Source of the DNA: Clostridiales bacterium GWD2_32_19
GTDB lineage: Bacteria > Bacillota > Clostridia > Lachnospirales > UBA12420
DNA length: 38,278 nucleotides
Direction of reading: 5' to 3'
Assembly (NCBI GenBank): GCA_001795385.1
Contig: MGOU01000024.1
Span: 1 to 38,278, forward strand
The translations under genes were made by a program, and so were the position numbers. This document shows positions 4,292 through 32,237 of the stretch, piece by piece (within the stretch, counting starts at the first letter, position 1; each line of letters starts with the position of its first letter). The notes below the pieces were generated by a model. That model searched no databases. It was not told the origin of the DNA and was given only the letters and a program-made list of their open reading frames with translations.

Positions 4292-4305
4292 ACGCGCAAT
4301 CCTCC

Positions 4306-6834
4306 TTAAACTCCAAATCCATAGTCATCCGAAAAGGCAATATCAATGATAAATTCATACCTTGCTACTTCAACATCTGTTTTATCGTTCATTAGCACCA
4401 TAAAGTACTTGTCGTCTTTACTATACTTTCTATCTTTTAGTACAAACTTTTCTTTAAACGCTCGCTTGTCTGGCTTTTCATCTTTGACATTGGCATTGAT
4501 GATGCATTCATTCGAAATTTTCTCTCCTTCTTCCGTAGTAAAATGTGCTTTCACCGTGAGTGGAAGTACAGTATCACTTACTGGCTCTTTTTGCATAAAG
4601 TCCATATAGGTAATCAGGTTTGTAATTTTCCTACTTAGAGATGTAATGATAAGCTCAGCCTCTTCCGTTTCTTTCTTGGCTCTTATTGATTTTACTGCAA
4701 TAACTGGAATAATCATCTCTTGCAGCGATGTTCCGCCATGCACGTAGTTTTGTCCACCGCCACTTACCTTGAATATGTCTACTCCTCTTGGCGTAGTCAC
4801 ACATATACCTTTCATGGTACTGTCTATATAGTCTAGTGAAAAGTTTAGCGTATTGTCGATATAATCAACATCTTTGGCTAGCATAAACCGCTTGTTGACA
4901 TAGTAACCTTTTAGTTTACCAATGTTAACCTTGTCACTTTCCATAAGTTTATCACGTTTGTAGATAAATCCGTGGTCTGCTGTAATGATGTAGTTTGTAA
5001 TACTCTTGTCTACAGTTAGTTTTTTAATTACCTTTGTGATTTCAGCCATTGCCTCTTCACATGCATCAAATATTTCATTTTCAGTAGATAAGTTGTCACC
5101 ACGTGCATCCACTTGATTATGATAGATATATACTAGCTCTTTTCCATTTAAAAGATTTCTTACCCCGTCTCTGTCTAGTGCCATGATATCAGTATATGTA
5201 CACGCTATAGATTCCTTTGTATATGTTTCTAGTACTTTTTGCCTTTGCTCTGTTGATACAGTTGGCATACCATCAATCATAACATCATACTCATCTGTAA
5301 ATGATAGACTCGTATGCGGTAGTAATGCCGCCATGCCTAGTTTTGTATACGATGGTACAGACGACATCATTGCATTTAATTCTGTCGTGTATCCTAAATC
5401 GTCCATCAATCTACCATTTAATTCAACAGCGCACTCATATCTAAATGCATCAGATATAATCACAACTGTACACCCCTTTTTCATTGATGATTTTACATAG
5501 GAATTATAAAAATTATGCTGCTTTTCTAGTTTAATACTTGCAAGTGATGTGCATTTTTCTAACATATCCGACCATGAAGTTGCTTCTTTTGCTAGTACTG
5601 CGTTCGTATATACGTTTTCAACATATTTTTTAAGTTCGATAAATCTACTATTGTCTTCTAGTTTATCAAAGCTCCAATAAAACTTTCTGTAAAACATATC
5701 TAGTAAACAATGCTGTTTTATATATTCGTCCAAGACGGTATCTTGTCCAAATATTGCATTTGAACCCCATTTTAGTAGTGCCCAACCATTCATAATTGTA
5801 CTATACTCATATTCTAGTTTTTTGCCATAATACATTTCTTTTCTGTCTTCTGCAATATCATATATTTTTTCAAACTCACCTGTATTAATAAACTCATACG
5901 TAAGCTTACTCAATATATTATCCATAATCAATTCATCAAATGTCTCAAAAGTGTCGCAATTTTTGAGTTGTGCTATTTCACACTTGCTCATGCTTTCTTT
6001 CGCTTTAATCTTTATACTGATATATTGTGCAATTTCCATATATCGGTCTTTGTACAACATATTGTTCATTAGGTTACTAACAAACACAGTAATATCATGC
6101 TTCTTGTTTGATATAAAGTATGTCCACGCCTTAGGCAGTACACCGTCAAAGTGTCCTTCAGTGTATGTAATCAACATCGTTATCACTAATTTTTCTAGTG
6201 TTGGCTTTTCTTCACTGTAGCCATAGTATTTTTGGCATAACGTCCAAAACTCTTTATTCACACCTATTCGCTCAAATTCTGCCATGTATTTATTGTTCTC
6301 AAAATCACCCGCAATAATGAGTGCTCTCAGTACTTCATCAAAATTAGGAGTCTTTATATTGCAAAGAACTGCAAGCATGCCAATTACTATAATTTCCGAG
6401 TTGTAGTTTTCTATACTGAGTGCCATAAATGGCTCTACATACTTCTTTTCACTTCTTGATTTGAAAAATTTCGGATACTTGTTCAGTTGCTCTTTATACT
6501 TTTCAGGTATACCTAGGTCGTTCATCATAAGTGATATCTTATCTGCATAGAACACCTTAGAGTAGTAGATCGTATCAGTCAAGTGGTTATCCCTATCGGC
6601 TGGCTTAGCAAATGGAGCATATACTAGATAGCTCGTATCCTTGTCCACTATTTCTAAAAAGTACTTTGTATAAAACACATTATTTGCATCAAGCTTGTAC
6701 ATCTTGGCATTGTCTAATACAAGTGAGTCTACTTCCTCTGCAAACTCAGCATTGTCATCATACCAAAATACAAGCTTGCGCTCTGTGCCTTTAAATTCGT
6801 TGTTTAGTTTATCTTGTATGCTTTTTAAATCCAT
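4306..6834 (-). CDS. pglZ: BREX protein PglZ, alkaline-phosphatase superfamily
   Basis: PglZ is a signature BREX component required for phage exclusion and usually for the host methylation step. At 842 aa it is the usual size for type 1. The PglZ domain in the middle carries the metal-binding-type motifs of the alkaline phosphatase superfamily: IISDAFRYE with Asp462 and ITADHGF with Asp620 and His621. The N-terminal half is helical and of unknown detail, and the last 130 residues form a beta-rich domain (TVKAHFTTEEG, YEFIIDIAFSDDYG). It sits 15 bp after the HEPN-like gene and 14 bp before brxL, all on one strand, consistent with one transcript. Confidence 0.95.
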   Translation of the reverse strand: MDLKSIQDKLNNEFKGTERKLVFWYDDNAEFAEEVDSLVLDNAKMYKLDANNVFYTKYFLEIVDKDTSYLVYAPFAKPADRDNHLTDTIYYSKVFYADKISLMMNDLGIPEKYKEQLNKYPKFFKSRSEKKYVEPFMALSIENYNSEIIVIGMLAVLCNIKTPNFDEVLRALIIAGDFENNKYMAEFERIGVNKEFWTLCQKYYGYSEEKPTLEKLVITMLITYTEGHFDGVLPKAWTYFISNKKHDITVFVSNLMNNMLYKDRYMEIAQYISIKIKAKESMSKCEIAQLKNCDTFETFDELIMDNILSKLTYEFINTGEFEKIYDIAEDRKEMYYGKKLEYEYSTIMNGWALLKWGSNAIFGQDTVLDEYIKQHCLLDMFYRKFYWSFDKLEDNSRFIELKKYVENVYTNAVLAKEATSWSDMLEKCTSLASIKLEKQHNFYNSYVKSSMKKGCTVVIISDAFRYECAVELNGRLMDDLGYTTELNAMMSSVPSYTKLGMAALLPHTSLSFTDEYDVMIDGMPTVSTEQRQKVLETYTKESIACTYTDIMALDRDGVRNLLNGKELVYIYHNQVDARGDNLSTENEIFDACEEAMAEITKVIKKLTVDKSITNYIITADHGFIYKRDKLMESDKVNIGKLKGYYVNKRFMLAKDVDYIDNTLNFSLDYIDSTMKGICVTTPRGVDIFKVSGGGQNYVHGGTSLQEMIIPVIAVKSIRAKKETEEAELIITSLSRKITNLITYMDFMQKEPVSDTVLPLTVKAHFTTEEGEKISNECIINANVKDEKPDKRAFKEKFVLKDRKYSKDDKYFMVLMNDKTDVEVARYEFIIDIAFSDDYGFGV

Positions 6835-6849
6835 CTCATCACCCTTTTA

Positions 6850-8502
6850 CTAAAATTTATTTCGATCTACTCCAACAATATCTGGTCCAAACTTTATGTA
6901 GTCACTATAATACATTGTTTTCCTAGCATGCGATACATAGCCTGACAATGTATCTTTGCTCATAACCGCTATAAGTCCAATCCGATCTTCATATTTATAT
7001 GATACACTCATAAGTTTTCTAGCGATAGATTTGTCACCATCTCCTGGATTCCTTTGCGTGAGTATTCTATCTAATGCAACACCTGCAGATATCCCATTCA
7101 CAATGTATTCTCTTATCGTATTTGCTGCTTGGTCTGACAATTTATACTTATTTATATTATTAGGAAGTAGGCACTCTTGCATATCCTCTTCATTTTTTAT
7201 GAATCCCTCATATCCTGCCCGGATTTCTTTTATCGTTTTCTTTTTCCTATCTATATCGTTTGCTATTGGAATTTGATTTATAATACTATCTATGCCCCTT
7301 ACAACATCATCCACTTGCTTTACATACCATGCGTTTCCAAAAGATTTAGCATTTATCAACATTGATTTTAGTTTATCTAGTTCATCGCACCTTCTAATTA
7401 TAAACCAATATGGTCTCGGATTTCCTTGAGCACTAATTGCTGACGCCACAAATGGCCACACTTGTTGAGCTGTTAACTTATCTGTTTCCTCAATTAATAT
7501 ACCTGTATTTTCGATTCCCGCTATGTAAATGTCCAAAATAAAGTCGCCCAAAGGTAAGTCCATCCGTTTTTCATCAAATCGTGTATTTGCAGATAATACA
7601 TCTTGATGAAATTTATCAGGCAATTCACTCAATTTTCTTTTTAAGTACTGAACGGACATTGGTACTGCATTAGGATCATTATTATCAATCTTTACAGGCA
7701 CACCTTCCTTCCCGCCTCTTTGCTTTAATAAATATATACTATGTGCCTCTGTTAGTGTTTTCACTAAATAGCTTACATCTTGTTCATTTGGAGATGCAAC
7801 TGCTAATTGTTCAAATGAATCTATCCATTCTGGTTTTTTTTCAGGTACATATGGGAGTACTAAATACATTGCCCTTAAGCAATCTGTTTTTCTATCTATG
7901 TCGGTCGCTTGTGCAAGCCTTCTTGACAGATCCTCAAGAATTGCAAGTCTATCTTTTACTGTTGCTTCTGGTTGGGATAAGTTTTTTAAGTAAGCTCCAA
8001 GCCGTTTGCTAGATGAAAGTAATCTCATAAAATCGTATATATCATTTATTATGGAAGATACAATGTCTTTTGATACTCCTATACCAGCGTGAAGTCCCTT
8101 TGCTCTTAGTTCTTGGACTAATTTAAACTTGCTTAAATACTCAATCAATATGGCTCTATACTCTACTTGATTTGATTTATCCTTCCATATGAAATCAAAA
8201 CTTTCATCTAAGTTCTTGATTCCTTGCTTTAATTCCTCAATAACTTCTGTTCCAAACTTGTATACCCCACTATTAATATTATTATTCTTGTACATATGTG
8301 TTACATCCTTAGCCTGAACCAAACAGGCTTTTGCCAGAAGTTCAACTGTAGCACCCAGTAGTCCCATAATTGGTCCGTATTTTGATTCTATATTTCTTCT
8401 TTGTCTTGTGTATGGCACATATAGCCCATATAAAGCCAGTGTGTATGTCTCCAGACTTCCCTCTATTAATGTCAATGTATCCTTTTTCAATACTCTAGGC
8501 AT
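6850..8502 (-). CDS. HEPN-like 550-aa protein inserted between pglX and pglZ
   Basis: This gene is not one of the six canonical type 1 BREX genes. I chose ATG at 8502 because GGAG stands eight bases before it; a GTG three codons upstream has no free binding site. The N-terminal 200 residues are helical and contain the helix LGATVELLAKACLVQ followed later by LRAKGLHAG, which gives Arg133-x4-His138. That combination is the hallmark of HEPN domains (RX4-6H), many of which are RNases in toxin and defence systems. The next 350 residues are helical with no named domain (RPYWFIIRRCDELDKL, SYKYEDRIGLIAVMSKD). It could be an RNase effector held in check by BREX, or an inactive scaffold. The HEPN call rests on motif reading only. 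Confidence 0.7.
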   Translation of the reverse strand: MPRVLKKDTLTLIEGSLETYTLALYGLYVPYTRQRRNIESKYGPIMGLLGATVELLAKACLVQAKDVTHMYKNNNINSGVYKFGTEVIEELKQGIKNLDESFDFIWKDKSNQVEYRAILIEYLSKFKLVQELRAKGLHAGIGVSKDIVSSIINDIYDFMRLLSSSKRLGAYLKNLSQPEATVKDRLAILEDLSRRLAQATDIDRKTDCLRAMYLVLPYVPEKKPEWIDSFEQLAVASPNEQDVSYLVKTLTEAHSIYLLKQRGGKEGVPVKIDNNDPNAVPMSVQYLKRKLSELPDKFHQDVLSANTRFDEKRMDLPLGDFILDIYIAGIENTGILIEETDKLTAQQVWPFVASAISAQGNPRPYWFIIRRCDELDKLKSMLINAKSFGNAWYVKQVDDVVRGIDSIINQIPIANDIDRKKKTIKEIRAGYEGFIKNEEDMQECLLPNNINKYKLSDQAANTIREYIVNGISAGVALDRILTQRNPGDGDKSIARKLMSVSYKYEDRIGLIAVMSKDTLSGYVSHARKTMYYSDYIKFGPDIVGVDRNKF

Positions 8503-8585
8503 TTTATCCACTCCAAACTTATTATTTTAGTTTTTATCTCCGCCAACAACTTCATCTTGTAGTATCTACTTTAACTTCATTCACT

Positions 8586-8774
8586 TTATACATTTTTATT
8601 TTTACCCTTTGTCGCTACCATTAAAGCAATTGGCCCTACTACTGCCAACGCTTTGCCTGCAAACTCCACTGTGCTTTTTACGCCATTAATTATACCGCTT
8701 CCAATCTTTGCAACACAATGTCTACAGATTTTTCCGTCACCTTCTGTTCCACAAATACGACATTTACTCATCAT
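8586..8774 (-). CDS. 62-aa zinc-ribbon protein with hydrophobic tail
   Basis: A tiny protein that begins MMSKCRICG. One zinc knuckle of the form CX2C-X8-CX2C (CRICGTEGDGKICRHC) is followed by an amphipathic stretch and a hydrophobic segment (AGKALAVVGPIALMVA) with a basic end. GGAGGGG stands about five bases before the ATG at 8774; a second ATG follows directly. The start overlaps the end of the upstream 351-aa gene, whose TAA is at 8764-8766, implying coupled translation of the two. It resembles small membrane- or protein-binding partners seen beside larger helical proteins, but no function is known to me. Confidence 0.75.
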   Translation of the reverse strand: MMSKCRICGTEGDGKICRHCVAKIGSGIINGVKSTVEFAGKALAVVGPIALMVATKGKNKNV

Positions 8775-9819
8775 TGCACCCCTCCAATAATTCACGACCC
8801 GAGACTTCTAGTTGTATACAATCTGCATCGTGCTTTAATCCACTTTTCAGTACATTATCTATTTCATCTATAAGCACTTGTGGGTTGCTATACCATGTAT
8901 CTTTCTGCATTCTATCTTTCCCACTCACCGCTATTTGTTCTAGTTCTCTCATTCTTTCATAGCTTATCCCTACAAGTTCTTTTGCTGAAGCGATTACTTC
9001 ACTTATAGCATTTTTGCTGTCTATAATCTCATATGTTAATGCCAGTAAGGTAGTTGCTTCAAAGTAGCGTTTCATATTTTCTTGTATTTCATAAAACTGT
9101 GTTTCTATATTAGAATAAAACTTGTCATCACATAAGGATTTCATCAGCAGCTTTAATTTATTATTCGGTATCTCTATTTCCTTTTTTAGCTCGTCGCTAA
9201 TATATAATTCAATCGTTGACCTACCTTTGTTTAACATTTGAATTGCACCAAACATTAATTGCTTTTTATTTGGATCCGAATCATCTAGTGTCATTGCCTG
9301 TTCTAATTGTTCTTTCCCTGATTTTATATCTCCTAATATAGCAAATTTCTGTCCTTTTTTAATGTCAACTGCAATTGCTTTTACCTCGTTTATTGTTCCT
9401 ACAAGTTCACCTATTTGCTGTTGTAATGCGATATTTGTTAAGTTTCCACTCAATTTTTTAACCTTTTCACCTATATTGAGATCTATCTCATCTAATCTTA
9501 ATTGTCCTATCATATTTCTATTCTTAGGTAACGTTGTATCGATTAAAGTTGCTAATATATCCCCTTTTTTATCTTTCAACATGTCGTATTGTCCACTATT
9601 TATTTTCTCTAATACCTCTTTTGTAAACTTTGCTACATAAGTTTTTTCTGGATTAATTATCTCTTTAACATTTTCAATACTTTGCGCAACTTCTGAAAAC
9701 AAGAGTGTTAAATTATTTTTGTTTTTCATGAAACTATTTATAAATTTGCCTTCTACAATATCTCTCTTGTTAGTTGATTCAATTATCTCATATTTATTAG
9801 CTATAATTATATCACTCAA
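8764..9819 (-). CDS. 351-aa helical protein inserted after pglX
   Basis: Unrecognised. The product is almost entirely alpha-helical, rich in Lys, Glu, Ile and Leu, and looks able to form coiled coils (LSGNLTNIALQQQIGELVGTI; LKKEIEIPNNKLKLLMK). A GTG at 9828 overlaps the AGGAGG motif, so I place the start at the TTG at 9819, seven bases after AGGAGG, which gives the N-terminus MSDIIIANKYEIIES. It has no membrane segment or catalytic motif I can name. It follows pglX by 27 bp and overlaps the small zinc-ribbon gene, so the two probably form a protein pair carried inside the BREX operon. Confidence 0.75.
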   Translation of the reverse strand: MSDIIIANKYEIIESTNKRDIVEGKFINSFMKNKNNLTLLFSEVAQSIENVKEIINPEKTYVAKFTKEVLEKINSGQYDMLKDKKGDILATLIDTTLPKNRNMIGQLRLDEIDLNIGEKVKKLSGNLTNIALQQQIGELVGTINEVKAIAVDIKKGQKFAILGDIKSGKEQLEQAMTLDDSDPNKKQLMFGAIQMLNKGRSTIELYISDELKKEIEIPNNKLKLLMKSLCDDKFYSNIETQFYEIQENMKRYFEATTLLALTYEIIDSKNAISEVIASAKELVGISYERMRELEQIAVSGKDRMQKDTWYSNPQVLIDEIDNVLKSGLKHDADCIQLEVSGRELLEGCNDE

Positions 9820-9846
9820 AAGCCACACCTCCTCTCTGGTTACATA

Positions 9847-12800
9847 CTATATCTTTGCCAACAAATCAACTTTATCAGCCTTTTTCCCCTCATTACTCAC
9901 TTCTACCCCTTGGAATTTCTCATAGTTTACAGTTACCCCATCGTCAAGGTCTATCGATATACGCCTCGCTGCCACATGTCCAATTGCTGCATCGTACAGT
10001 CTAGTTTCCTTTAGTTGCTTTTCTAGCTTCTCCTTCTCTTTGACTGCCTTTACCTTTTGGGCTGGCGTCGTGGCATGGTCTATGTCTGCATTGCGTGCGA
10101 TGATTGCATGTTCTAGCTTCTTTTGCATCTCATGTAGGTATTCCGTTCTGACCTTAGCCACTGTGTCTTGGTTGTATCTGTGCATGTAGATCAGTCCCTT
10201 GAATCCGTTTTCCTTACCACTGTCAAACATCCAGTATATTGGTTTCTTTCGGTATGTCTTTATATGGTCTTTGTAGAAGTCCTTGCTAAAGTAGTTACGT
10301 ATTTTTTCCCTTGATGTATTACCCTTGTTACCAAGTGCATCTGCAATGAAGTCGAGGTTGTCCTCAAGTGTCTCCTCGCCATATGCTACCTTGACAAAGT
10401 TGACGAATCTACTTACAAAGTCGTCGTCGAAGTATTCCGCATCGGTGATTGGTATGATATTGTCTGCATCTGGTATAAATGACTTATACTTGCTGCTATC
10501 CCACTCACCGCCTGCATAGGCTATTCCATCTGTGTCTAGGCTGTATCGCCCGAGCATACATCCTACTGCGTATGATATGAGGCTCTTGATGTCACGTTGT
10601 AAGTCTGCTTTGCGGACTGTTATGTCTTCAGTATCAACCTCTAGTGTGAGTTCTTCTTGAAGTTTGTATATTTCAATGAATATACGGTTTAGCTCTTCTT
10701 CATTTGCTTTTAAAGTATTAAATCTATGTCTTGATTGGATTTCCCAATTTTTATATGCATACTCTATCCCACCCACTTTAGATGGTTCACTAGTACCCGT
10801 GTTATAAAACCTATGAAATATTAAAGGATGGGTTACAAAGTCCCATGAAGTTTCAAAACTATCCCAATCTGTTTTGGAAATAGAGATACATTCTACTGTG
10901 TTCTTTCTTATTTCCCTTAAATTATCTTTATCATATATTACTGGCAAAGAAGCAATATTACCTTTTTGAAAATTTAAAGTTGGATTCAGCATTGATAAAT
11001 AATAAAACACTATATTACTATTAAATAGACCTAATATATAATATATATCGATATTTTTAATAGATGCAAAAGATCCTGCAGCATCGTATAAAAAACCCTC
11101 TTCAGTATATCTTGAAGAAAATTTATACGAAGATAACGAGTTCCAACATATGTTTTCTTTAAATATATAGTCTAAATTAAATGCATGTGCTGGTACTTTT
11201 CCCCTTTTATCTCTATGATTTCTCATCCTAAAACCATCATTATACCAATCAACTACATTTTCATTGTTACCGTACCATTTTCTAAATTCTCCACCTTTAC
11301 TATACGGAAACCACTTCATTTTACTTTTGACTGCTTCCTCTCTACATTTTGAATCCGCTTTGAATTTTATTATTTCGATTTCATACCAAAATCGTACAAA
11401 CATATCATTGTTTCCTGTTATCATACCAGCCCTTGTTTCAGCACAATCTCCAAGTAACTTAGCTTTTTCGTATACCTCTATCACCTTTTCACTTACCCAA
11501 TATGCGATAGGCATACCTGGTATTTTTTCAAAGTTTTCTTTTTTGGCATTATGTTGATTACTCCGCTTTAAGAAAATCTCCTCTTTTGCTCTTGCATTAT
11601 CTATATCCACAAGTCTTATGTAATTTCCAATATATTTATTTATATCCCTATTTCTATTAACAAAAGCTGTTGCTTGCACTACCTCTCCACCTATTTCCTC
11701 AAATGCCCTTGCTCCCAAGTGAACCATATTTATTATACTATTCGACAATAAATTTTTCCTTAAACTTTCATAACTTGATAAAAACATCCATGAGTGCTGA
11801 GTAATCATAGCTTTCAATGCATTTTTCTTTAACATTTCATCACACTTCTCTATAAACACTGCAAACAAATCCGCCTTACTATCTGGATAATTTTCTTTAA
11901 CATATTCAGCCAACCTCACACCCATCCCACTTCCACTCATATAAGGTGGGTTTGTCACTACTACATCATACTTTTGTGACATAATCTTCGCTTGCTTAAT
12001 CAACGCTGGCATAAACTCTTTTATGCGACCAATATACTCCATCTCAAACAAGTCCTCACCACCATGTGCTGACACTCGTTCTATGTACTGTTCAAGTGCG
12101 TCGTAGTCTATTGCCTCTATATCCAGTATTGATCCATACTCCTTAGCATCTCTAAATGCGGCTATCAGGTAATTTGCTGTTTCAAGCACCATATTGTCCA
12201 TAGACAACTGTTTATTGCTAATCGCAAAGTCTCCTTTGTGCCCATTACTTTCTTGTATCGCGCACAAATGAGGCTTTATCCCCTCACTTAAGATACGCCT
12301 TGAGTACTTCCTTGCTTTCATCATTACTGCAAAGTAAGCAAGCTGGTATGCACGGTCGTCAATATCTAGTCCATATAAGTTATTTTCAAGTATATGTTTT
12401 GCAGCATCGCGTTCGTCATACCCACATGACTTGTATATATCCATCAGCACATCAAAAGCATACACCAATATATGCCCACTTCCCATACATGGGTCTATAA
12501 TCTTGATAATCTTTGGATCCTCTATCTTATTTTCTGCCCTAAGTTTTTCCAGCTGTGCTTTCACATCTGGTTCTTGCTCTGCTTCTTCTAGGTAGTATTT
12601 CCATTGTGATTTAAGAGGTGTGCCCCCATCTACTAACATTGTCCCGTTTTCAAGCCACAGCCTACCAAGTGAGTTTTCCACCATATATCGTACTATCCAG
12701 TCTGGTGTAAACAGCTGAGTAGCCGCTGGGATACGCTCTTTTGTTATCTTTACATTGCTTTTTAGTTTGGCAAACGTATCGTCTTTTAGCTCTGTGTTAT

Positions 12801-13479
12801 AATATTGATACAACCATCCAATAATCTCAATTTGTCCGCTTTGGCTCATATCAAAGTCAACTTCATCTATACCATCTACAAGCATACGAACAATGCTCTC
12901 TTCCCCTACATACGATATAGGCAAGAGTAGCTCAGTGTGGTCACTTGTCTTTTCAAACAAGTCTGGCAATATTTCATTCAGTACATTACATTGCTTAACA
13001 AATAGCATTTGAAACAGTTCTTCCGTCTTACTGCTATGCTTCAAGTCTATGATTCGCTCCCTCTCTGCATCAGTATATCCCAAGTCCACGTTTAGCGCTT
13101 CTGTAACAAGATCAGGCTCATTCTTGCCCTCTTTCTCACTCGACAGCACCCTCACACGTGTTGGTAGGTAGTCATTGATCTCCATAAATCGTACAGCAAT
13201 TAAGCGGTTAAACCAAGTATAGGCTACCTCTTCCACCACATTGTCAAGCCCTTTTTCCCTGACCCTAGTCACCAAGCTTTGACGTTGTTTGACTTGATCA
13301 CCTTTAATCTCATAAGCCTGGTTTGCCCCTATATTATAACGTTCAAGTCGTGCTTCTTTATATACTGGCTCATCAGTTTGATCCTTATGTACCCCTAAAA
13401 GTCCCGCTTTGTATGTAATTTCATTCATTAGCTTCTTTCTAGCCTCTACTGCAAACTTCTTAATTGCTGTCTTATTCAT
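9847..13479 (-). CDS. pglX: BREX-1 adenine-specific DNA methyltransferase PglX
   Basis: PglX is the N6-adenine methyltransferase that marks host DNA at a non-palindromic site and supplies self versus non-self information to BREX. The 1210-aa length is normal for type 1. An N-terminal helical region is followed by TPDWIVRYMVENSLGRLW, the AdoMet-binding motif DPCMGSGHIL (residues 329-338) and the catalytic NPPY (510-513), followed by a long target-recognition and C-terminal region. GAGGAG precedes the ATG. Bases 10700-11800, which encode the presumed target-recognition part, look richer in A and T than the rest of the gene, consistent with swapping of specificity domains by recombination; this is an impression, not a calculation. 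Confidence 0.95.
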   Translation of the reverse strand: MNKTAIKKFAVEARKKLMNEITYKAGLLGVHKDQTDEPVYKEARLERYNIGANQAYEIKGDQVKQRQSLVTRVREKGLDNVVEEVAYTWFNRLIAVRFMEINDYLPTRVRVLSSEKEGKNEPDLVTEALNVDLGYTDAERERIIDLKHSSKTEELFQMLFVKQCNVLNEILPDLFEKTSDHTELLLPISYVGEESIVRMLVDGIDEVDFDMSQSGQIEIIGWLYQYYNTELKDDTFAKLKSNVKITKERIPAATQLFTPDWIVRYMVENSLGRLWLENGTMLVDGGTPLKSQWKYYLEEAEQEPDVKAQLEKLRAENKIEDPKIIKIIDPCMGSGHILVYAFDVLMDIYKSCGYDERDAAKHILENNLYGLDIDDRAYQLAYFAVMMKARKYSRRILSEGIKPHLCAIQESNGHKGDFAISNKQLSMDNMVLETANYLIAAFRDAKEYGSILDIEAIDYDALEQYIERVSAHGGEDLFEMEYIGRIKEFMPALIKQAKIMSQKYDVVVTNPPYMSGSGMGVRLAEYVKENYPDSKADLFAVFIEKCDEMLKKNALKAMITQHSWMFLSSYESLRKNLLSNSIINMVHLGARAFEEIGGEVVQATAFVNRNRDINKYIGNYIRLVDIDNARAKEEIFLKRSNQHNAKKENFEKIPGMPIAYWVSEKVIEVYEKAKLLGDCAETRAGMITGNNDMFVRFWYEIEIIKFKADSKCREEAVKSKMKWFPYSKGGEFRKWYGNNENVVDWYNDGFRMRNHRDKRGKVPAHAFNLDYIFKENICWNSLSSYKFSSRYTEEGFLYDAAGSFASIKNIDIYYILGLFNSNIVFYYLSMLNPTLNFQKGNIASLPVIYDKDNLREIRKNTVECISISKTDWDSFETSWDFVTHPLIFHRFYNTGTSEPSKVGGIEYAYKNWEIQSRHRFNTLKANEEELNRIFIEIYKLQEELTLEVDTEDITVRKADLQRDIKSLISYAVGCMLGRYSLDTDGIAYAGGEWDSSKYKSFIPDADNIIPITDAEYFDDDFVSRFVNFVKVAYGEETLEDNLDFIADALGNKGNTSREKIRNYFSKDFYKDHIKTYRKKPIYWMFDSGKENGFKGLIYMHRYNQDTVAKVRTEYLHEMQKKLEHAIIARNADIDHATTPAQKVKAVKEKEKLEKQLKETRLYDAAIGHVAARRISIDLDDGVTVNYEKFQGVEVSNEGKKADKVDLLAKI

Positions 13480-13515
13480 CCACTTTTCACTCCTCTCTTA
13501 GGTCTTCTAAATACG

Positions 13516-14346
13516 TTAAATCAAAGTATCTATAAAAATCCTTACTTTGTCAATTAACATTTGTGAGTTAGTAATAAATTCCCCCGCCAATACAGTGGTT
13601 GCAGGTAATTTTGATAAAAAGCCTTTAAATCCTTCAAATGCTTTCTGTAATCTTGCTTTCTTTGGTTTAGAATCATTCACTTGCTCTTTTATTACTTCTA
13701 AATCATCCATCGCGTTTTCTTTATCATTTTTGTCTATAGCACTTTTCTCTAAAATATCATATAAACTAGTCACTAATTTGTGTATCTCTTTTATTTCATT
13801 GATATTTGTTGTGTTTGTTGAAGTAATATCTCCACTACTAGACATATTAACGTTTCCGTAGTTATTTCCAATATTTTGAACTAATCCTATATTACTTATT
13901 TTATCATTTTCTAGTATTAGCATCTCCTTTGATAATTCATCATTTATAAAATAAATTAAAGGCTTTATCATTTTTGATAAAAAATTTCGTACTATATCTG
14001 TGTAACCAGATGAGCCATGTCTATATCTCATAGCTACAGTTACTATGTCTATTTCAGTTTTGATAATATACTCCATATAATCATATATCGCCTTAAGATG
14101 CTTTTCCGTTTCAACTGGTGGATTTATATCCATCCATCCACTTACTTCAATGTTAAAACACTCTTTAAAATCATACTCTACACCAGATATTTTTTTATCA
14201 ACTATTTCTTTGATTGTAGTCTCAGCGTCTATATAATTTTTAAATCTGATAAAATGTATGGTGCTTTCATCATAAGTAGTGTTAAGTAATTCACTTGCTA
14301 TTCTCCTAAAGTCTATGCTTAATAACTTATATCCTTTTAATTCCAC
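13516..14346 (-). CDS. 276-aa protein with AbiTii-like C-terminal region, between brxC and pglX
   Basis: A TTG at 14364 is possible, but GTG at 14346 is better: its G overlaps the TAG stop of the upstream gene (TAGTG) and GGGGTGG lies five bases away. The first 140 residues are a mixed alpha/beta region without a name. Then comes a polar linker with NIGNNYGNVNMSSSGDI, a glycine/asparagine-rich style common in AbiTii-like and effector-associated proteins. After that a charged helix and a hydrophobic end (KAFEGFKGFLSKLPATTVLAGEF). This C-terminal layout often occurs in small abortive-infection proteins and may touch the membrane. Coupling with the zinc-ribbon gene implies that they act together. 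Function not known. Confidence 0.65.
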   Translation of the reverse strand: MELKGYKLLSIDFRRIASELLNTTYDESTIHFIRFKNYIDAETTIKEIVDKKISGVEYDFKECFNIEVSGWMDINPPVETEKHLKAIYDYMEYIIKTEIDIVTVAMRYRHGSSGYTDIVRNFLSKMIKPLIYFINDELSKEMLILENDKISNIGLVQNIGNNYGNVNMSSSGDITSTNTTNINEIKEIHKLVTSLYDILEKSAIDKNDKENAMDDLEVIKEQVNDSKPKKARLQKAFEGFKGFLSKLPATTVLAGEFITNSQMLIDKVRIFIDTLI

Positions 14347-14804
14347 TATATATCCACCCCACAATACGGACAGAATATTTTAGATGCTCCACTACAATAT
14401 AGAACCTTAACATGATTATCACAAATTTTGCAGGTAAATTGTTGTTCGACAGAATCCTTAGTAGTTAATTCTTGTACGTGCACCTTTTTTAACGGTTTAT
14501 AATCCATTTTCAATGCCTTGCTTTTATTAATATCTCTAGTCATTTTCCCAAAACTCTTATTAAATTGTTCTGAAATATAATTTTCCATGAGTGCCTTTAT
14601 GTGCTTTACCATCTCTTCTGTGTAAAAACTGTCTTTGTCCCTGGTTAATCCACAATACGGACAAAACATATCGTTCAGATTGTTTTTGTCACTTTGAACT
14701 TCTTCAGCACTTAACTTAAACTCTGATTTGCAAAATGGACATTCATATAATATAAATCCCTCACTATCTCCTTGTATTTGCACCTTAAATTCCACCTTTG
14801 CCAC
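14346..14804 (-). CDS. 152-aa protein with two zinc ribbons
   Basis: The protein starts at GTG (14804), seven bases after GGGAGG. It has one zinc ribbon near the N-terminus (CPFC, 22 residues, CPYC) and one at the extreme C-terminus (CKIC, then CPYCG), joined by a helical segment of about 70 residues (EEMVKHIKALMENYISEQF). Such paired ribbons usually bind protein or nucleic acid rather than catalyse. It is 13 bp after brxC, and its stop codon overlaps the GTG start of the 276-aa gene. No family name recognised. Confidence 0.75.
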   Translation of the reverse strand: MAKVEFKVQIQGDSEGFILYECPFCKSEFKLSAEEVQSDKNNLNDMFCPYCGLTRDKDSFYTEEMVKHIKALMENYISEQFNKSFGKMTRDINKSKALKMDYKPLKKVHVQELTTKDSVEQQFTCKICDNHVKVLYCSGASKIFCPYCGVDI

Positions 14805-14817
14805 TTAGATTCCTCCC

Positions 14818-17800
14818 TTACATCAACAATTTTATAACTGTATTTTCATCAAGTTCGCCTATTATCTTTGCCCTTAACCCTTGTAAGAAAGCATCTATAT
14901 CCTCTTCCTTTTCAATGGTTACCATCTTGCCTGCCGTAAGTTGCTTAATGCTTACATTTTTTTCGGTCTTTAGCACCTTTTTCACTTGATCTACTGTTGT
15001 CACACCGTCTGGCTCATTTACTTGTGTATGCTTTGCAAGTTCTTCTGCCAGTTTACGCTCATAGTCAGCTATTTCGTTAAGTAGTCTTACTTTAAGTGCA
15101 TCGCTTTCATGTCTTACGTTCTTTACTTCTGCAATGTTGTTTGATCTATCGAGTTTGTCTAGTAGCTCCTCGAATAGCTTTACGTATCGGTCTCTGAACT
15201 TATCTGCAAACTCCTTTTTGTTAAGCTCATCAAGCATTGTACCTTTGTCTTGCTTTACATCTTCCCTAATAGGATTTGCTTCATTGCCTATTAGCTCTAG
15301 ATGCCTCGTTTCAAACGATTCATTTAGTTCTGGTAGTCTATGTATATCTGAGTACGGCTTAGCCAGTGCTATGATTTGCTCCATCTTAGCCACTATTTCT
15401 ATGATTTCCCTATCAACTACATACGTCTTACTGTCATTGAATACTTTTACATACTTACAAGCCTTAGCAAATATAACTTTTTGCTCCCCACCAAAAAACG
15501 ACATAATAGGTCCTATATCCTCTGCAATATCAAGCAATTCGTCCCTCTTGGTATCAATAAGTTTAAAAAATTCCATTGGCTCATTGTGTTTGTTCACGAT
15601 TGACGTAAGTAGATCTTGGGCATGAGTCATAATACTCTTACCTGGGTATCTTGGTTCGTCTCTATACTCTACAAGTAAAATCTTTTCTATGTCTTTAAGC
15701 TTAGCTTGAGCTCTACGTCTAAAGTTAGATATTAGCGTGTCATCTTCGTCAGATGCAGCCGCACCGCCCAGTAAGTCTTGCATTACTTCTTTTGCAGCCT
15801 TGATTTGTCTATCTGTTGCCTTTTCGCGTTTTTCTATCAAAAGCTTTTCTGCATATTCTTTTCTTGTTATGTATTTTAATATTTCATTTGAATCTGTGTC
15901 TACAAGCGAAATGTTTTGACTATTGATAGACATAGCCACATTCCCTTGTCTAAAGAGTGTTGCCATTAACCATTGCACGTCAAACTCTACAAATCCATAC
16001 GGTGCCTTTTCAAACTTATCTTGTAACGCTTTTAACGAAGTACGTGTGTGACGTATGGTATTTAGATTGATAAACTCTAGCATATCATCAAGTGCGTGTT
16101 GATTCGATAATCTCGCATCTGCTATGTCCATTGATACTTGGTTTGTGATACGGATTGCACTGTCTATGTCCGCTAGTCCTGGCATTGTTTCCATATAAGA
16201 CAGCTTATTGTATCTAGCATTTACAAGTTTACCCATCGCTTCATTGATACGACTTACAGCATCTTTATTTGCAATGTTAAGTTTATCTCCATTGACATAG
16301 ATATCTGCCTCTCTAAGTGCATCTTCTATATATATCTTAACCCTCGAATTTTTCTCATTTAGCTCTTCTTGTTTTGCACGTCTAATGCTATCTAGACTCT
16401 TTGCTAGGTTCGCACTGTTTTTCGTTATGTACTTATTGATTTTAATGATTTCTGTAATCTCGTCTAGGAAGGTGCTATCATTTGGCAGCATAATAACGAT
16501 ATTGTTTTCCTGTGACGAAATCATACGGAGCCTGTCCTCTCTGTATTCTTCGTCACTATATGGCGTAATCACACGGATTCCAACATCATTTGATTGATTG
16601 TTACGATAAAATCTATCATCTACAAGTTGATTGAACGGGAAGTTATACCTAGCGCTGTATCTGTACTTCTTTTCTGTATAAACATCCTCAAATATAACTT
16701 CTGAAGCCTTGTTAATTACTTCCCCTGTCTCCACGTATTCTTGGGCAATTGAGCGGTTGATATCTTGTTCCTCATTTGTTAGGAATATGTATATCTCGCC
16801 ATTCTTTTGCACAAGTGTTTCTTTGGCAAGGCGTTTCAGTGAATCTTCTACACGTTTTTTTAGTGCAATACGATCTGCACTGATATCGTCAACAAGAAGT
16901 GTCGTTATATTATCAACGTTTAGCTTGATTTCTTTTACGTATTTAAGCATAAATAGTGTCTTGAGTACTTCTACATCAAATTTATCTGGACTGAGATTGT
17001 TGTTTTCATCAGCCTTTGTAATAACAAGACTATGTGTATGGTCCACAAACTTATGTAGCGCATTGTAGAATATATTGAATGGTACAAGTGCACCTTCACT
17101 CTTATCCATTAAGGCTACTGCTGATTCTTTAAACAATGCAAGCATTGAACGTTCACCTTCTGACAAGTGTTTTCCTGATGCGCCATGCTCTCTGATCGAT
17201 GTAAGCACTTGCCCAAGCAAATTGAACTGATATGGTATAAACGGATATACTTCAGCAAAATCGTCTTTGTCTGCATACATCTTCTTTTCTGCCGTATCAG
17301 CAGTAAATATTACTAGATTTTTTAGTAGTGATTCATTCTTTTCATACAGTAGTCTAAGTGTTTGCTTAGCCACTTCCTTCTTGTCTAGTATTCTTTTACG
17401 GATAACCTCGTCAACATTGGCACTTGATAGTGAAAGTCTTGTATCAAATCTACCTGTGATTTTTGAAAAGTCACTACCTTTTACCTTAGTGATTGAGTCT
17501 ATGTCTTGTTGGCTAGTTACCACGACCCATGCCTTTCCTCCACACATTGTACCCAAATCTTCTGTTACCGTTTGCAGATTTAGCATAAGTTTCGTATCTT
17601 CACCGATGTACTGACCTACCTCATCCACCATAAATATCACATGGTGGTTATTACCTTTCTTTTCACAGTAGTCTTTTACAAGTGTAGCAAACTTTTCTAT
17701 GCTTATGTTATAGTTTTCCCCTGCTTTTTCGCACCAGTTCTTAGCAGCATCTTCGCTCATAACTCCTACACTAGCAAGCGCTTTAATAATGTCGTCTTGT

Positions 17801-18414
17801 ATAAAGTAAAAATCTTCTCTTGCCTTTTCCCATTCCAAACCATTCAGTGCCTTGAAGTCCGCTCTAAATTTATCATATACCTTATCACTCACCAATTTAC
17901 GCTCAAGGTCAGCCATAAAAGGCATTGTTGCACAGTATCCAAGCTTTTCATTGAATACCTTTAGGAATACTTCTACAATTGCATCTTTATTTGACTTTGA
18001 ATCTGCCGAACTTTTCGAGTCAATATTAAATAAGATTACATCCGCAGATGTGTCAGCAGCAAGGTTAATATCTGCCATCATCATAGAGTCTGTAATCTTT
18101 TTGCCGTCTGTAAAGAAGTCTACTGCCTTTTGCCCATCTATTTCCTTGTTTGCAATTAAATAAGACAACATTTTTAAGAAATGTGACTTTCCACTTCCAA
18201 AGAACCCTGATATCCAAACACCCATTTTGTCTGTATTACCGCTGATTCCCTTTTTATAATTTTCAAAAAACTCTCTAAAGTGTTTTGTAAGTTCCCTTGT
18301 TATAACGTACTCTTCGAGCTCTTGTTTAATATTTTGCTCGTCGTCTTGTCCAACCTTGATAACACCTTTTATATCTCTGTCTATTGATTTTTCGAACATA
18401 TCGCCTATTCTCAT
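14818..18414 (-). CDS. brxC: BREX protein BrxC, large P-loop ATPase
   Basis: BrxC (also called PglY-like, DUF499/DUF6079 lineage) is the large ATPase of BREX and is needed for defence. This 1198-aa copy has the usual size. A Walker A (GFFGSGKS, residues 70-77) and Walker B (VIFMVDEVG, 259-267) define an N-terminal ATPase; the remainder is long and helical with coiled-coil stretches in the last 300 residues (LDKLDRSNNIAEVKNV). GGAGG lies six bases before the ATG. It lies 20 bp after brxB and 13 bp before the zinc-ribbon gene. Confidence 0.95.
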   Translation of the reverse strand: MRIGDMFEKSIDRDIKGVIKVGQDDEQNIKQELEEYVITRELTKHFREFFENYKKGISGNTDKMGVWISGFFGSGKSHFLKMLSYLIANKEIDGQKAVDFFTDGKKITDSMMMADINLAADTSADVILFNIDSKSSADSKSNKDAIVEVFLKVFNEKLGYCATMPFMADLERKLVSDKVYDKFRADFKALNGLEWEKAREDFYFIQDDIIKALASVGVMSEDAAKNWCEKAGENYNISIEKFATLVKDYCEKKGNNHHVIFMVDEVGQYIGEDTKLMLNLQTVTEDLGTMCGGKAWVVVTSQQDIDSITKVKGSDFSKITGRFDTRLSLSSANVDEVIRKRILDKKEVAKQTLRLLYEKNESLLKNLVIFTADTAEKKMYADKDDFAEVYPFIPYQFNLLGQVLTSIREHGASGKHLSEGERSMLALFKESAVALMDKSEGALVPFNIFYNALHKFVDHTHSLVITKADENNNLSPDKFDVEVLKTLFMLKYVKEIKLNVDNITTLLVDDISADRIALKKRVEDSLKRLAKETLVQKNGEIYIFLTNEEQDINRSIAQEYVETGEVINKASEVIFEDVYTEKKYRYSARYNFPFNQLVDDRFYRNNQSNDVGIRVITPYSDEEYREDRLRMISSQENNIVIMLPNDSTFLDEITEIIKINKYITKNSANLAKSLDSIRRAKQEELNEKNSRVKIYIEDALREADIYVNGDKLNIANKDAVSRINEAMGKLVNARYNKLSYMETMPGLADIDSAIRITNQVSMDIADARLSNQHALDDMLEFINLNTIRHTRTSLKALQDKFEKAPYGFVEFDVQWLMATLFRQGNVAMSINSQNISLVDTDSNEILKYITRKEYAEKLLIEKREKATDRQIKAAKEVMQDLLGGAAASDEDDTLISNFRRRAQAKLKDIEKILLVEYRDEPRYPGKSIMTHAQDLLTSIVNKHNEPMEFFKLIDTKRDELLDIAEDIGPIMSFFGGEQKVIFAKACKYVKVFNDSKTYVVDREIIEIVAKMEQIIALAKPYSDIHRLPELNESFETRHLELIGNEANPIREDVKQDKGTMLDELNKKEFADKFRDRYVKLFEELLDKLDRSNNIAEVKNVRHESDALKVRLLNEIADYERKLAEELAKHTQVNEPDGVTTVDQVKKVLKTEKNVSIKQLTAGKMVTIEKEEDIDAFLQGLRAKIIGELDENTVIKLLM

Positions 18415-18434
18415 ATTCAGCCTCCATATTATCT

Positions 18435-19007
18435 TTAGAATTTGTTTGCTCTGTAGTAATTATCATCTTTAATCGTTCCAAACAGCTGTAAAACTTGCCC
18501 CGAATACGCCCCAGGGAAGAACATCACAACTGGTACAGTATCTAGTACCTGGTGTAAGTTGTTAAGTATATTGTGAGACCTTACAATTGGGTAGCACATG
18601 CCTACTCCTGTAATGAATACTACTGAGCCCTCGTTAGTATTTTCTAATATATGATTTACAATCAAATTGTCTTTTGTTGTGATCCTAAGTAGCTTGATGA
18701 TCGCTTCATACATGTACTCTGTTCCTTTTGTCTTTTCAAAATCAAAGCACTTTTCCAAGTAGCCTCTATCTTTTAGTATTTGCATTACAATCTCATACAA
18801 GTTAAACTCAACAATTTTGAAGTCATAGTTTGACTTGTTAATTTTATTGACCAAATATGATACATGACTCCTTACCATTTGCTCATCGCGTGCTGGGTAG
18901 TCAAAGATATGGTAGTTTACTTCATTTGCATTACCAGAGTTTTGTCTAAAATCAACACTTTTAATCTTTTCTTCAATACTATTTAGTTTATCCTCTAAGC
19001 TACTCAT
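18435..19007 (-). CDS. brxB: BREX protein BrxB (DUF1788)
   Basis: BrxB is a small conserved BREX protein; its biochemical role is unresolved. The 190-aa product has the typical features of DUF1788: an N-terminal coiled start (LEDKLNSIEEKIKS), the central YLVNKINKSNYDFKIVEFNLYE, and the C-terminal VVMFFPGAYSGQVLQLFG. GGGGGAG stands before the ATG, which follows the brxA stop after only three bases. Confidence 0.93.
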   Translation of the reverse strand: MSSLEDKLNSIEEKIKSVDFRQNSGNANEVNYHIFDYPARDEQMVRSHVSYLVNKINKSNYDFKIVEFNLYEIVMQILKDRGYLEKCFDFEKTKGTEYMYEAIIKLLRITTKDNLIVNHILENTNEGSVVFITGVGMCYPIVRSHNILNNLHQVLDTVPVVMFFPGAYSGQVLQLFGTIKDDNYYRANKF

Positions 19008-19010
19008 ACT

Positions 19011-19595
19011 CTACTCCCCCATGATGGCATTTAGATAAGCTGTCATGCCGTTTGCTTTCAAGTGCTCTTCCACTTTATAATCAATATTTACAAGCTTTAT
19101 ATCATTATTTTCTGTCAGAAGTCCTATTTCATAAAGGATCCTAAGATAGCTGCTTTTTAACTTTTTTACTGTTGATTCACTAAACTTAGCGACGATATCA
19201 CTCTGCGCCTTCTTAGCATCAAAGAATTTATCTAAATCAACAGACTTTATTGTCATATCACCCAGAATTACCTTTTCCCTAAACACTTCATGCATAAACT
19301 CGAATACCAATCTGTCTGTTCTCATAATCCCTATAAATACAAGCACCTTAGATGTTGTTATGTCCGACTCTGCTATCGCTTTGACTAGATTATCGTCAAA
19401 CACACTCAGCCTTCGATATGCCGTATTCATTACCCCATTTGCTCTGTCAGCTGATGGTACTTGATATATATTATCATTGATTGCCTTTGACTTAATTTCA
19501 TCTTTACTTACACCTGCAACCATTAACTTTGCAGTTTGTTTGGTCTCTGTATATAAAAACGGTCTTGAAACCATTCCCCCACTATATTCTAACAT
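19011..19595 (-). CDS. brxA: BREX protein BrxA (DUF1819)
   Basis: BrxA is the first gene of the type 1 operon, a small DUF1819 protein that in other bacteria binds DNA; its exact role is open. This 194-aa protein has the family pattern: YSGGMVSRPFLYTETKQTAKL near the start, a run of helices, and a winged-helix-like middle (ILGDMTIKSVDLDKFFD). AGGAGG sits eight bases before the ATG, and a near-consensus promoter lies about 40 bp upstream. Confidence 0.93.
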   Translation of the reverse strand: MLEYSGGMVSRPFLYTETKQTAKLMVAGVSKDEIKSKAINDNIYQVPSADRANGVMNTAYRRLSVFDDNLVKAIAESDITTSKVLVFIGIMRTDRLVFEFMHEVFREKVILGDMTIKSVDLDKFFDAKKAQSDIVAKFSESTVKKLKSSYLRILYEIGLLTENNDIKLVNIDYKVEEHLKANGMTAYLNAIMGE

Positions 19596-19700: not shown

Positions 19701-20789
19701 TTAATATTTTGCCAACACCAGTTTTATCTCCAAATATCCTATCCCCACTGGCACCGCATCCTTTATCGCCTTAAGCTTATCCCGTCCAACTTTTGATATC
19801 GCATCCATCACCAGTTTTTCATGTTCCTCCGTAATCATTTCCCGTATGTCCATTTCAAATCCTTCTTTATAAGCTTTCACGATATGTTCCTGAACCGTCA
19901 TTGTTTGTAATCCCAATTGCTTTGCAACTGCGTTTTCATCTTTTAGTTCTAAATATAATTTCGTCGTTGTTATATAACTTTTATCTTTCTTAACTACTTT
20001 TGCTGATTTTTCTGGCTGATTCGACATTATCTTACCGTAATGAACACTAGACTTATGTAGAACAATATCATCGATATGCTTTTGTTTTTCTGTATCTGTT
20101 TTGTATGTACATCTTTTTAATGCATAGTACATCTTATCCATCTGTTCTTTACTATAAGCTTCTTTATTCTTACCAACTATACTCCTAACCGTGGCCGTCA
20201 AATCTTGCCTTTGTAGTACAATCGTATTTTTCTTCGTCAGTTTTATCTTCTTGATATTACAACGCTCACTAAATACGATGATTGAATATACACTGTCGCT
20301 TCCTACCTCTAAACACTTCTCCAACCACTTAATATGTGTAGCGTTCTGCCATACCGGGTTATGAAAGCGTTGCTTTCTGTATTTACCGTATGTTGCTGTC
20401 CATTTTTCTTGATTTTCGTTCCCAAATATCCATCCACTATAGTTCTTAGACTCTAACACAAATATACCACTCGCATGAATCAGTACCACATCAATTTCCG
20501 ATGTGCCACCATCTTCCTTTGGTAAATATGCATTGGTTACTATTCTATACTCACCAGTCAGTTTCTCTATCTCTACAAAAGTCAGATACTCCCCATACTT
20601 TCCCCTATCAGATAATACTTCCCAAAGTGTAATCCCAGCCTCAAGTTTATATTTACTTTTGTCAAACTTCAACTTTTCTACGAGTATAAACCAACCTATC
20701 GGCACCAGCATTATAAGTGCATACCACTTGATTAACCATACTGCTATAAAGAATAATCCTATTACCTTCACCATTTCTAACTTTTTCAT
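19701..20789 (-). CDS. membrane-anchored NERD-domain protein with HTH_40-like end
   Basis: I chose the second ATG (20789), six bases after GGGAGG; the first ATG directly abuts the binding site. The 362-aa product starts with a hydrophobic segment at about residues 10-36. A NERD (nuclease-related) domain follows: GEYLT, then SEIDVVL with Asp100 and the core VLESKNYSGW with Glu113 and Lys115, i.e. an intact D...E-x-K. The last 95 residues (TTKLYLELKDENAVAKQLGL, then EHIVKAYKEGF) look like the helix-turn-helix found at the C-terminus of RecQ-type helicases (HTH_40). A DNA-processing enzyme at the membrane is plausible. It lies just upstream of brxA on the same strand, in a typical defence-gene position. 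Confidence 0.85.
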   Translation of the reverse strand: MKKLEMVKVIGLFFIAVWLIKWYALIMLVPIGWFILVEKLKFDKSKYKLEAGITLWEVLSDRGKYGEYLTFVEIEKLTGEYRIVTNAYLPKEDGGTSEIDVVLIHASGIFVLESKNYSGWIFGNENQEKWTATYGKYRKQRFHNPVWQNATHIKWLEKCLEVGSDSVYSIIVFSERCNIKKIKLTKKNTIVLQRQDLTATVRSIVGKNKEAYSKEQMDKMYYALKRCTYKTDTEKQKHIDDIVLHKSSVHYGKIMSNQPEKSAKVVKKDKSYITTTKLYLELKDENAVAKQLGLQTMTVQEHIVKAYKEGFEMDIREMITEEHEKLVMDAISKVGRDKLKAIKDAVPVGIGYLEIKLVLAKY

Positions 20790-20810
20790 ATTCATCCTCC
20801 CGTATGTACT

Positions 20811-20905
20811 AAAAAAATCGTGTGGTTACGCTATATGTTGAACCCAAATTAGACAAATGCTATATTTGTCTTTTCAAGCTTAACTTACGCGTCCCCACAC
20901 GATTT
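20811..20905 (-). promoter_or_regulatory. structured leader RNA or attenuator of the NERD gene
   Basis: Between the NERD promoter and its start codon, the minus-strand RNA can fold compactly. An 11-bp outer stem (20895-20905 with 20815-20825, AAATCGTGTGG/CCACACGATTT) is followed by a 2x2 internal loop and four more pairs (ACGC/GCGU). Inside is a hairpin of eight pairs (AGACAAAT/ATTTGTCT, loop of five), with a possible five-pair stem around it (UUGAA/UUCAA). The 3' side of the outer stem runs into seven U residues. The design is that of an intrinsic terminator placed before the gene, so it could attenuate NERD expression or make a short separate RNA. It matches no riboswitch class I know; a small inverted-repeat element is the alternative. 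Confidence 0.55.
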
Positions 20906-20919
20906 CTACTATTTCCTTT

Positions 20920-20948
20920 ATTATACATAACTTTCCTAGCTTTTTCAA
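20920..20948 (-). promoter_or_regulatory. promoter of the NERD gene and its leader
   Basis: Minus strand: TTGAAA (20943-20948), 17 bp, TATAAT (20920-20925). Predicted transcription start near 20913, about eight bases before the outer stem of the folded leader. This spacing is what makes the leader look like a transcribed structure. Confidence 0.7.
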
Positions 20949-28506: not shown

Positions 28507-29545
28507 TTTTTATACCTCCTATATGTCTAATAATTTCATTACCAATTACTTCACCTAATCTTACAGGAACTGCATTTCCAATATGAGTGGATACATTTTT
28601 CATTACTATTGGTTTTTCATTATTAAAAAATATATAGTTTTCTGGAAAGGATTGCAATAATGCTCCTTCCCTTAATGACAATCCCCTGTTTTGCTCAGGA
28701 TGCCCAAATCTTCCATTTCCAAAACCATTGAATTGAGTAGTTATAGTTGGTGATACTTTATCCCACTCCATTCTGCCATAAACTGACGTATATGTGCTTC
28801 CAGTCTTTTTCTTATGACATTTAGCAATCAATTTTTTGTCCCAATCTGCCCATGTACCGCCAGGTTTCGATTGCTTTATTCTATCCATATTTTTCTTCGA
28901 TAAACTTGATGCAATATGTAGAGGATCTTTTTCGTCTCTATCTCCAGCTTCTATTGGTTTTAAATGTCCTATTATTTCTCTAACTGTTACATATGTACTC
29001 TTCTCATGCGTTATCTGTGGTAAATTTATTTTACCTAACCTTGAGGCTAAAAGTACAAGTCTTGTTCTACTTTGAGGTATTCCATAATCAGGACAATAAA
29101 TTAAGTCATAATCTACGTAATATCCATTCCCCTTCAATACATCAACAAATTCTCTAAAAACATCCTTTTTCCTGAGTTGTGGCACATTTTCCATAGAAAC
29201 TATGTCTGGCATAATCTCCATAACTAATCTTGAAAATTCATCTAGTAAAAACCATTTCTCCTTTTTTTTCTCTTCACTTGCTGTATTAGAATAGTTTGAA
29301 AATGGTTGACATGGTGCGCAACCCACTAGCACTTTATAGTCTGATCCCTCATAATAAGAAAGCATATCTTCAGATTTAATTTCTCTAACGTCTTTTGCAA
29401 GAAATTTTGCGTTATTATTTGTTTCATATGCATATTTACAAGTTTCATCTATATCAATTCCCAACGTAACATTAATACCCGATTTGATTAATCCATGAGT
29501 TAAACCACCAACACCGCTATATAAATCCACTGCTTTAATAACCAT
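28484..29545 (-). CDS. DNA (cytosine-5-)-methyltransferase
   Basis: A 353-aa m5C methyltransferase with the classical motif order: DLYSGVGGLTHGL (motif I, residues 7-19), GCAPCQPFSNY (motif IV, catalytic Cys79), MENVPQL (motif VI, Glu119-Asn-Val), QSRTRLVLLAS (motif VIII), a rather short target-recognition region around 215-270, and GNAVPVRLGEVIGNEI (motif X). It transfers a methyl group from AdoMet to C5 of cytosine at a site that cannot be read from the sequence. It protects host DNA from the downstream ATPase/nuclease. Length is typical for short single-domain enzymes. Confidence 0.95.
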   Translation of the reverse strand: MVIKAVDLYSGVGGLTHGLIKSGINVTLGIDIDETCKYAYETNNNAKFLAKDVREIKSEDMLSYYEGSDYKVLVGCAPCQPFSNYSNTASEEKKKEKWFLLDEFSRLVMEIMPDIVSMENVPQLRKKDVFREFVDVLKGNGYYVDYDLIYCPDYGIPQSRTRLVLLASRLGKINLPQITHEKSTYVTVREIIGHLKPIEAGDRDEKDPLHIASSLSKKNMDRIKQSKPGGTWADWDKKLIAKCHKKKTGSTYTSVYGRMEWDKVSPTITTQFNGFGNGRFGHPEQNRGLSLREGALLQSFPENYIFFNNEKPIVMKNVSTHIGNAVPVRLGEVIGNEIIRHIGGIKSGREIRV

Positions 29546-31405: not shown

Positions 31406-31413
31406 AATCTCAC

Positions 31414-32187: not shown

Positions 32188-32237
32188 AATTTTATCCTCC
32201 ATTTCCTCTTTTTTGATATACCCTCTTTATTCGCCAA

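Follow-up and report, generated by a model that had tools for sequence, protein, structure and literature searches.

How bacteria hold many costly immune systems silent and switch them on jointly is largely an open question, and a locus of Clostridiales bacterium GWD2_32_19 raises it in a concrete form. In the stretch of 38,278 nucleotides analysed here (hereafter the window), a gene encoding a NERD-domain protein lies upstream of a BREX operon and is preceded by a compact self-folding RNA ending in a U-run. What is this RNA, and is it peculiar to this gene? We consider it fairly probable that it is a transcription attenuator belonging to a genus-wide family carried by defence transcripts, and the sharing of the leader suggests a single RNA switch that would co-ordinate the immune genes of the bacterium.

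The original prediction placed a near-perfect promoter before the NERD gene, followed by an RNA closing on itself through an 11-bp outer stem, an internal loop, four pairs, an inner 8-bp hairpin and seven U, and both were recovered (Table 1). The leader fold compares with a mean of -16.8 kcal/mol for shuffled sequences (z = -9.34; none of 200 shuffles as low), and when the whole intergenic region was shuffled 200 times, the best 109-nt window reached only -35.3; the fold is far beyond chance and is conserved elsewhere. Its outer stem (20907-20895/20825-20813) comprises 11 bp, or 13 with the flanking A-U pairs, and encloses a GG/AA internal loop, the four pairs ACGC/GCGU and the inner 8-bp hairpin. 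Because the previous gene on the minus strand is already served by a terminator hairpin of its own at 21187-21153, the U-run hairpin of the leader is not the terminator of that gene. The longest NERD reading frame begins at ATG 20795, abutting the ribosome binding site, and ATG 20789 is more likely the start codon. The predicted distinction from T-boxes and known riboswitches held, with no Rfam covariance model (these classes included) matching any leader at its gathering score. The order of promoter, folded leader, U-run, ribosome binding site and defence gene thus supports the attenuator-like, cis-regulatory layout first proposed. What that proposal overlooked is that the leader represents a family on many defence operons of the genus, with two conserved parts: a 5′ hairpin with a GGGG loop, here termed P1, and an intrinsic terminator with which P1 competes.

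Table 1. Positions of the leader, the NERD gene and the neighbouring BREX features in the window.
Feature	Position	Strand	Evidence or remark
Sigma-70-type promoter of the leader/NERD transcript, TTGAAA-17-TATAAT	20920..20948	(-)	11/12 matches
Self-closing leader RNA	about 20914->20806	(-)	-40.8 kcal/mol
Terminator 5′ arm, overlapping P1	20895..20907	(-)	folding of the leader
P1, 5′ hairpin CGUGU-GGGG-ACGCG	20888..20901	(-)	most conserved block of the leader family
Inner stems AGCUUGAA/UUUGGGUU and AGACAAAU/AUUUGUCU	20841..20880	(-)	best covariation in this helix
Terminator 3′ arm and U7 run	20811..20825	(-)	U7 = 20817-20811
Ribosome binding site GGGAGG	20796..20801	(-)	6 nt ahead of ATG 20789
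NERD + HTH_40 protein, 364 aa	19701..20795	(-)	PF08378 E 2e-28, PF14493 E 3e-19
Separate brxA promoter and operator-like palindrome TTGACAA-N15-TTGTCAA	19634..19684	(-)	promoter 19662-19634, 11/12
BREX operon: brxA, brxB, brxC, two PDC-M14 genes, pglX, two unassigned ORFs, pglZ, brxL	2234..19595	(-)	

The leader is not confined to this gene. A BLAST search of the same genome revealed a second copy on contig C16, 80% identical over the promoter and 5′ half, whose 3′ half has diverged yet is still complementary; the next gene encodes a NERD-UvrD protein and is followed by a gene for a 482-aa protein, with a type I HsdM downstream in the island. Among 146 relatives, BLAST found copies only in two congeners, besides promoter-only and chance matches. 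The family thus described comes from three draft genomes of one genus and comprises ten copies, of which six are full; in two the inner stem alone forms the terminator, and two are weaker. Each lies just 3′ of a promoter, the promoters being similar to that in the window. The genes behind them are mutually unrelated. In addition to NERD and NERD-UvrD, they are an orthologue of the NERD gene of the window (leader L025), an AAA_15 ATPase followed by HsdM, HsdS and HsdR (L013/L048), two Hachiman systems (HamA-HamB at L032, and HamA-HamB followed by an HsdM-type methylase at L014/L049), Cas6 in a type I-B cas operon that is complete and has a CRISPR array (L012/L047), a Cas3 HD gene truncated at the end of its contig (L141), and two NUDIX genes (L006, where the 3′ half of the leader is lost and the P1 block conserved, and L145). 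Both the NERD-UvrD and the AAA ATPase genes are accompanied by type I restriction-modification. Recognised defence families accordingly follow 8 of the 10 copies, and NUDIX genes with weak matches only to the phage-defence candidate family PDC-S07 follow the other two. Purely as an illustration, if 5% of genes served defence, the chance of finding 8 in 10 would be about 2e-9.

Some of these loci have features of their own. NUDIX is not an established defence gene; the leader-bearing ones lie at L006/L052 930-1376 (-) and L145 1777-2316 (+). The AAA ATPase gene (L013/L048, 8589-9859 (-)) is broken into two frames, and an early stop interrupts the N-terminus of the NERD orthologue (L025/L051, 1-1050 (-)), each reflecting either decay or assembly error. 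The leader-Hachiman island of genome G001 (L032 1772-2623 (-)) lies directly downstream of a row of seven tRNA genes, a kind of site at which integration is common.

A covariance search for further copies, suggested with the original prediction, was run with three models: R1 built from four copies, R2 from six, and R3, covering the 5′ hairpin in 37 positions, from eight. R1 recovered two copies absent from its input, before the NERD orthologue and before HamA (L032), and R3 found the copy before Cas3 at E 2.4e-7, so that copies found blind again lay on defence genes; the R3 match at L145 was weak (E 0.11). Outside the genus, R2 gave nothing credible when run on the order and the class (about 390 genomes each), where the R1 and R2 matches in other genera were just ordinary terminators (E near 0.002-0.07). 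P1 was not found upstream of HamA and BrxA in other genera, and two of the HamA genes there have unrelated hairpins upstream. The open papers searched contain no description of such a leader.

Could the leader be a repeat or small mobile element whose position ahead of these genes is fortuitous? There are several copies per genome and they are nearly palindromic. Even so, we regard this as highly improbable, since the copies always lie between promoter and ribosome binding site and nowhere else in the three genomes, and they diverge by compensating changes. In a pattern scan of these genomes, promoter-linked TNGGGGACGCG occurred only at the leaders. The repeat at many unrelated sites that had been named as counter-evidence did not appear; copies were seen just 3′ of defence-type promoters only, and none at unrelated sites with target duplications. 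Phage and plasmid collections held no leader match. In viral contigs, the pattern TCGTGTGGGGACGCG gave only eight chance matches, in high-GC coding DNA, TGTGGGGAC...TAAATC gave none, and looser patterns gave 118 stretches, none of them a credible R3 match.

The original prediction also considered read-through from the NERD gene into BREX. Such read-through may occur, as no terminator was found between NERD and brxA, but the link is weaker than supposed: brxA has a promoter of its own, and BREX itself need not depend on the NERD leader. The palindrome TTGACAA-N15-TTGTCAA (19684-19656) overlaps that promoter, over the -35 box, and recurs at three leader promoters in the congeners (L013, L014 and L025), there too across the -35 region, while none was found elsewhere in 634 kb of non-viral loci inspected, allowing up to 4 mismatches. 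It is likely the operator of a shared defence regulator, and with its recurrence at three leader promoters it would seem that defence genes of this genus have a DNA operator in common as well as an RNA leader. In genera of the order other than this one, brxA is usually preceded directly by a small Xre-type HTH gene of about 70 aa (L108, L110, L112, L113, L115, L117 and L119); this gene is absent in the window, where its place is taken by the leader-bearing NERD gene together with a separate promoter for brxA. Inside the BREX operon, between brxC and pglX, two genes (13516-14804 (-)) match the phage-defence candidates PDC-M14A/B. A second defence-like operon of the window, a cytosine-5 DNA methylase followed by a HATPase_c_3 (MORC-like) gene (26497-29545 (-)), has no leader, so that the leader is not on every defence gene. 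Further along, two RlaP (RNA-repair nucleotidyltransferase) genes lie side by side at 30398-32202 (-).

P1 lies within about 10-25 nt of the presumed transcription start, and its loop is GGGG in nine copies and GGGU in one. In the six full copies, its 5′ arm doubles as the 5′ arm of the terminator, and since this arm is common to both, the two structures are mutually exclusive there. In both cas leaders, P1 stands free and the terminator is the inner stem alone (AAAUCUAAG...UUUAGAUUUUUU). A terminator is thus present ahead of the first gene of the operon in 8 of 10 copies; a clear U-run terminator was not seen in the two NUDIX copies, which may have decayed or be under different regulation. 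Folding of the nascent 5′ part alone gave P1 or an equivalent in nearly all copies, though poorly in L025 and L006. Over the whole-leader structure of the six full copies, 95.6% of cells pair, compared with 28-49% in slid registers, and seven pairs are changed on both sides (0 of 500 shuffles as high), in an alignment that was fitted to the model and hence leans towards that structure. For P1, three pairs are double-changed (reached in 13 of 500 shuffles), with five double-changed cells (7 of 500), statistics drawn from 10 related sequences. Over the outer stem, the terminator 5′ arm, expected to be more conserved than the 3′ arm, proved equal to it (0.86 vs 0.87).

These patterns bear on two further readings of the conserved block. 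If the leader served chiefly to encode a terminated, trans-acting small RNA of about 100 nt, with the downstream gene expressed by read-through, its promoter, compact fold and U-run would all be in place. We find this rather improbable, as every copy lies directly before the ribosome binding site of a defence gene while the genes themselves differ, and the 5′ block is fixed whereas the 3′ strand varies freely: across the six full copies, identity is 90% in the P1 block against 54% in the opposite strand. The P1 block seems to be selected for itself, and its partner strand mainly for pairing. Slightly less probable still is that the block is a DNA operator just 3′ of the promoter and the hairpin incidental. 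The block is indeed kept in L006 despite loss of the 3′ half, and a DNA palindrome is common to defence promoters here; however, changes within the block preserve pairing, as in the seven perfect pairs of L141 (ACUGUGU-GGGG-ACACAGU, with CUGUGU/ACACAG) and in L012 (ACCGAAU-GGGG-AUGCGGU, with CCGAAU/AUGCGG), where the arms change and the pairing stays, and compensating changes keep the terminator fold in all six full copies. A leader-peptide attenuator was rejected as well: the frame GUG-UGG-GGA... has no SD and, read by eye, is broken in L014, L006 and L012.

For the attenuator that we favour, the following course can be proposed. By default, most transcripts would stop at the U-run after about 100 nt, and this premature stop would keep the defence genes low. 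A cellular or infection-linked factor, be it an RNA-binding protein, a partner RNA or a modified RNA polymerase, would hold P1 and let the polymerase continue into the defence genes; in the overlapping class, the held P1 would also keep the 5′ arm from the terminator. Sharing of the leader would then put different defence systems under one signal. The fullest form of this idea is a defence regulon under RNA control, in which a dedicated factor, sensing infection or stress, reads the GGGG hairpin of one leader type, and antitermination releases the BREX-island NERD, Hachiman, type I CRISPR-Cas and restriction-modification islands together; we offer it tentatively, as somewhat short of an even chance. 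No candidate for the trans factor was found: each of the three genomes has one NusG and no NusG paralogue such as LoaP.

P1 could instead be a recruitment hairpin for processive antitermination, its factor riding with RNA polymerase past the leader and later terminators of long defence operons, in the manner of LoaP with its UNCG hairpin. The leader-bearing operons are long, and the cas leaders, in which a 5′ hairpin stands apart and a terminator follows, match the LoaP layout exactly. The loop is GGGG and not UNCG, though, which together with the single NusG per genome argues against LoaP itself, and the overlap of P1 and terminator in six copies would be needless for a riding factor, so we consider this explanation unlikely.

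Should the attenuator reading be true, an RNA leader shared among defence operons of unrelated kinds would represent a different layer of control, as the known shared regulators of immune systems, to our knowledge, act on DNA. The leader may also be usable as a tag for new defence genes; through such association, the 482-aa protein encoded behind NERD-UvrD and the two NUDIX genes become candidates.

Among known systems, protein-dependent attenuators of the trp/TRAP, PyrR and BglG/LicT type have competing antiterminator and terminator folds, and there, as here, a 5′ strand either pairs early or serves as the terminator 5′ arm. The present leader differs in having no recognised known binding motif and in controlling, as it would appear, several defence operons that are unrelated to one another. 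In the literature, the layout nearest to it is that of the LoaP/dfn-hairpin antitermination leaders of Bacillus (Bacillota), in which a 5′ RNA hairpin (UNCG) precedes an intrinsic terminator on long, costly operons (PMC12691694). The 5′ hairpin and terminator are common to both, but the LoaP leaders carry a UNCG loop on polyketide operons, whereas ours carry a GGGG loop on defence operons and overlap P1 with the terminator in six copies; membership of the LoaP class is excluded by the different loop type and the absent NusG paralogue in the three genomes. Finally, the WYL/BrxR-type regulators of defence islands likewise provide one regulator type common to many defence systems (PMC9122589, PMC9122601), yet these act on DNA at the promoter, while the element described here is an RNA leader with a terminator.
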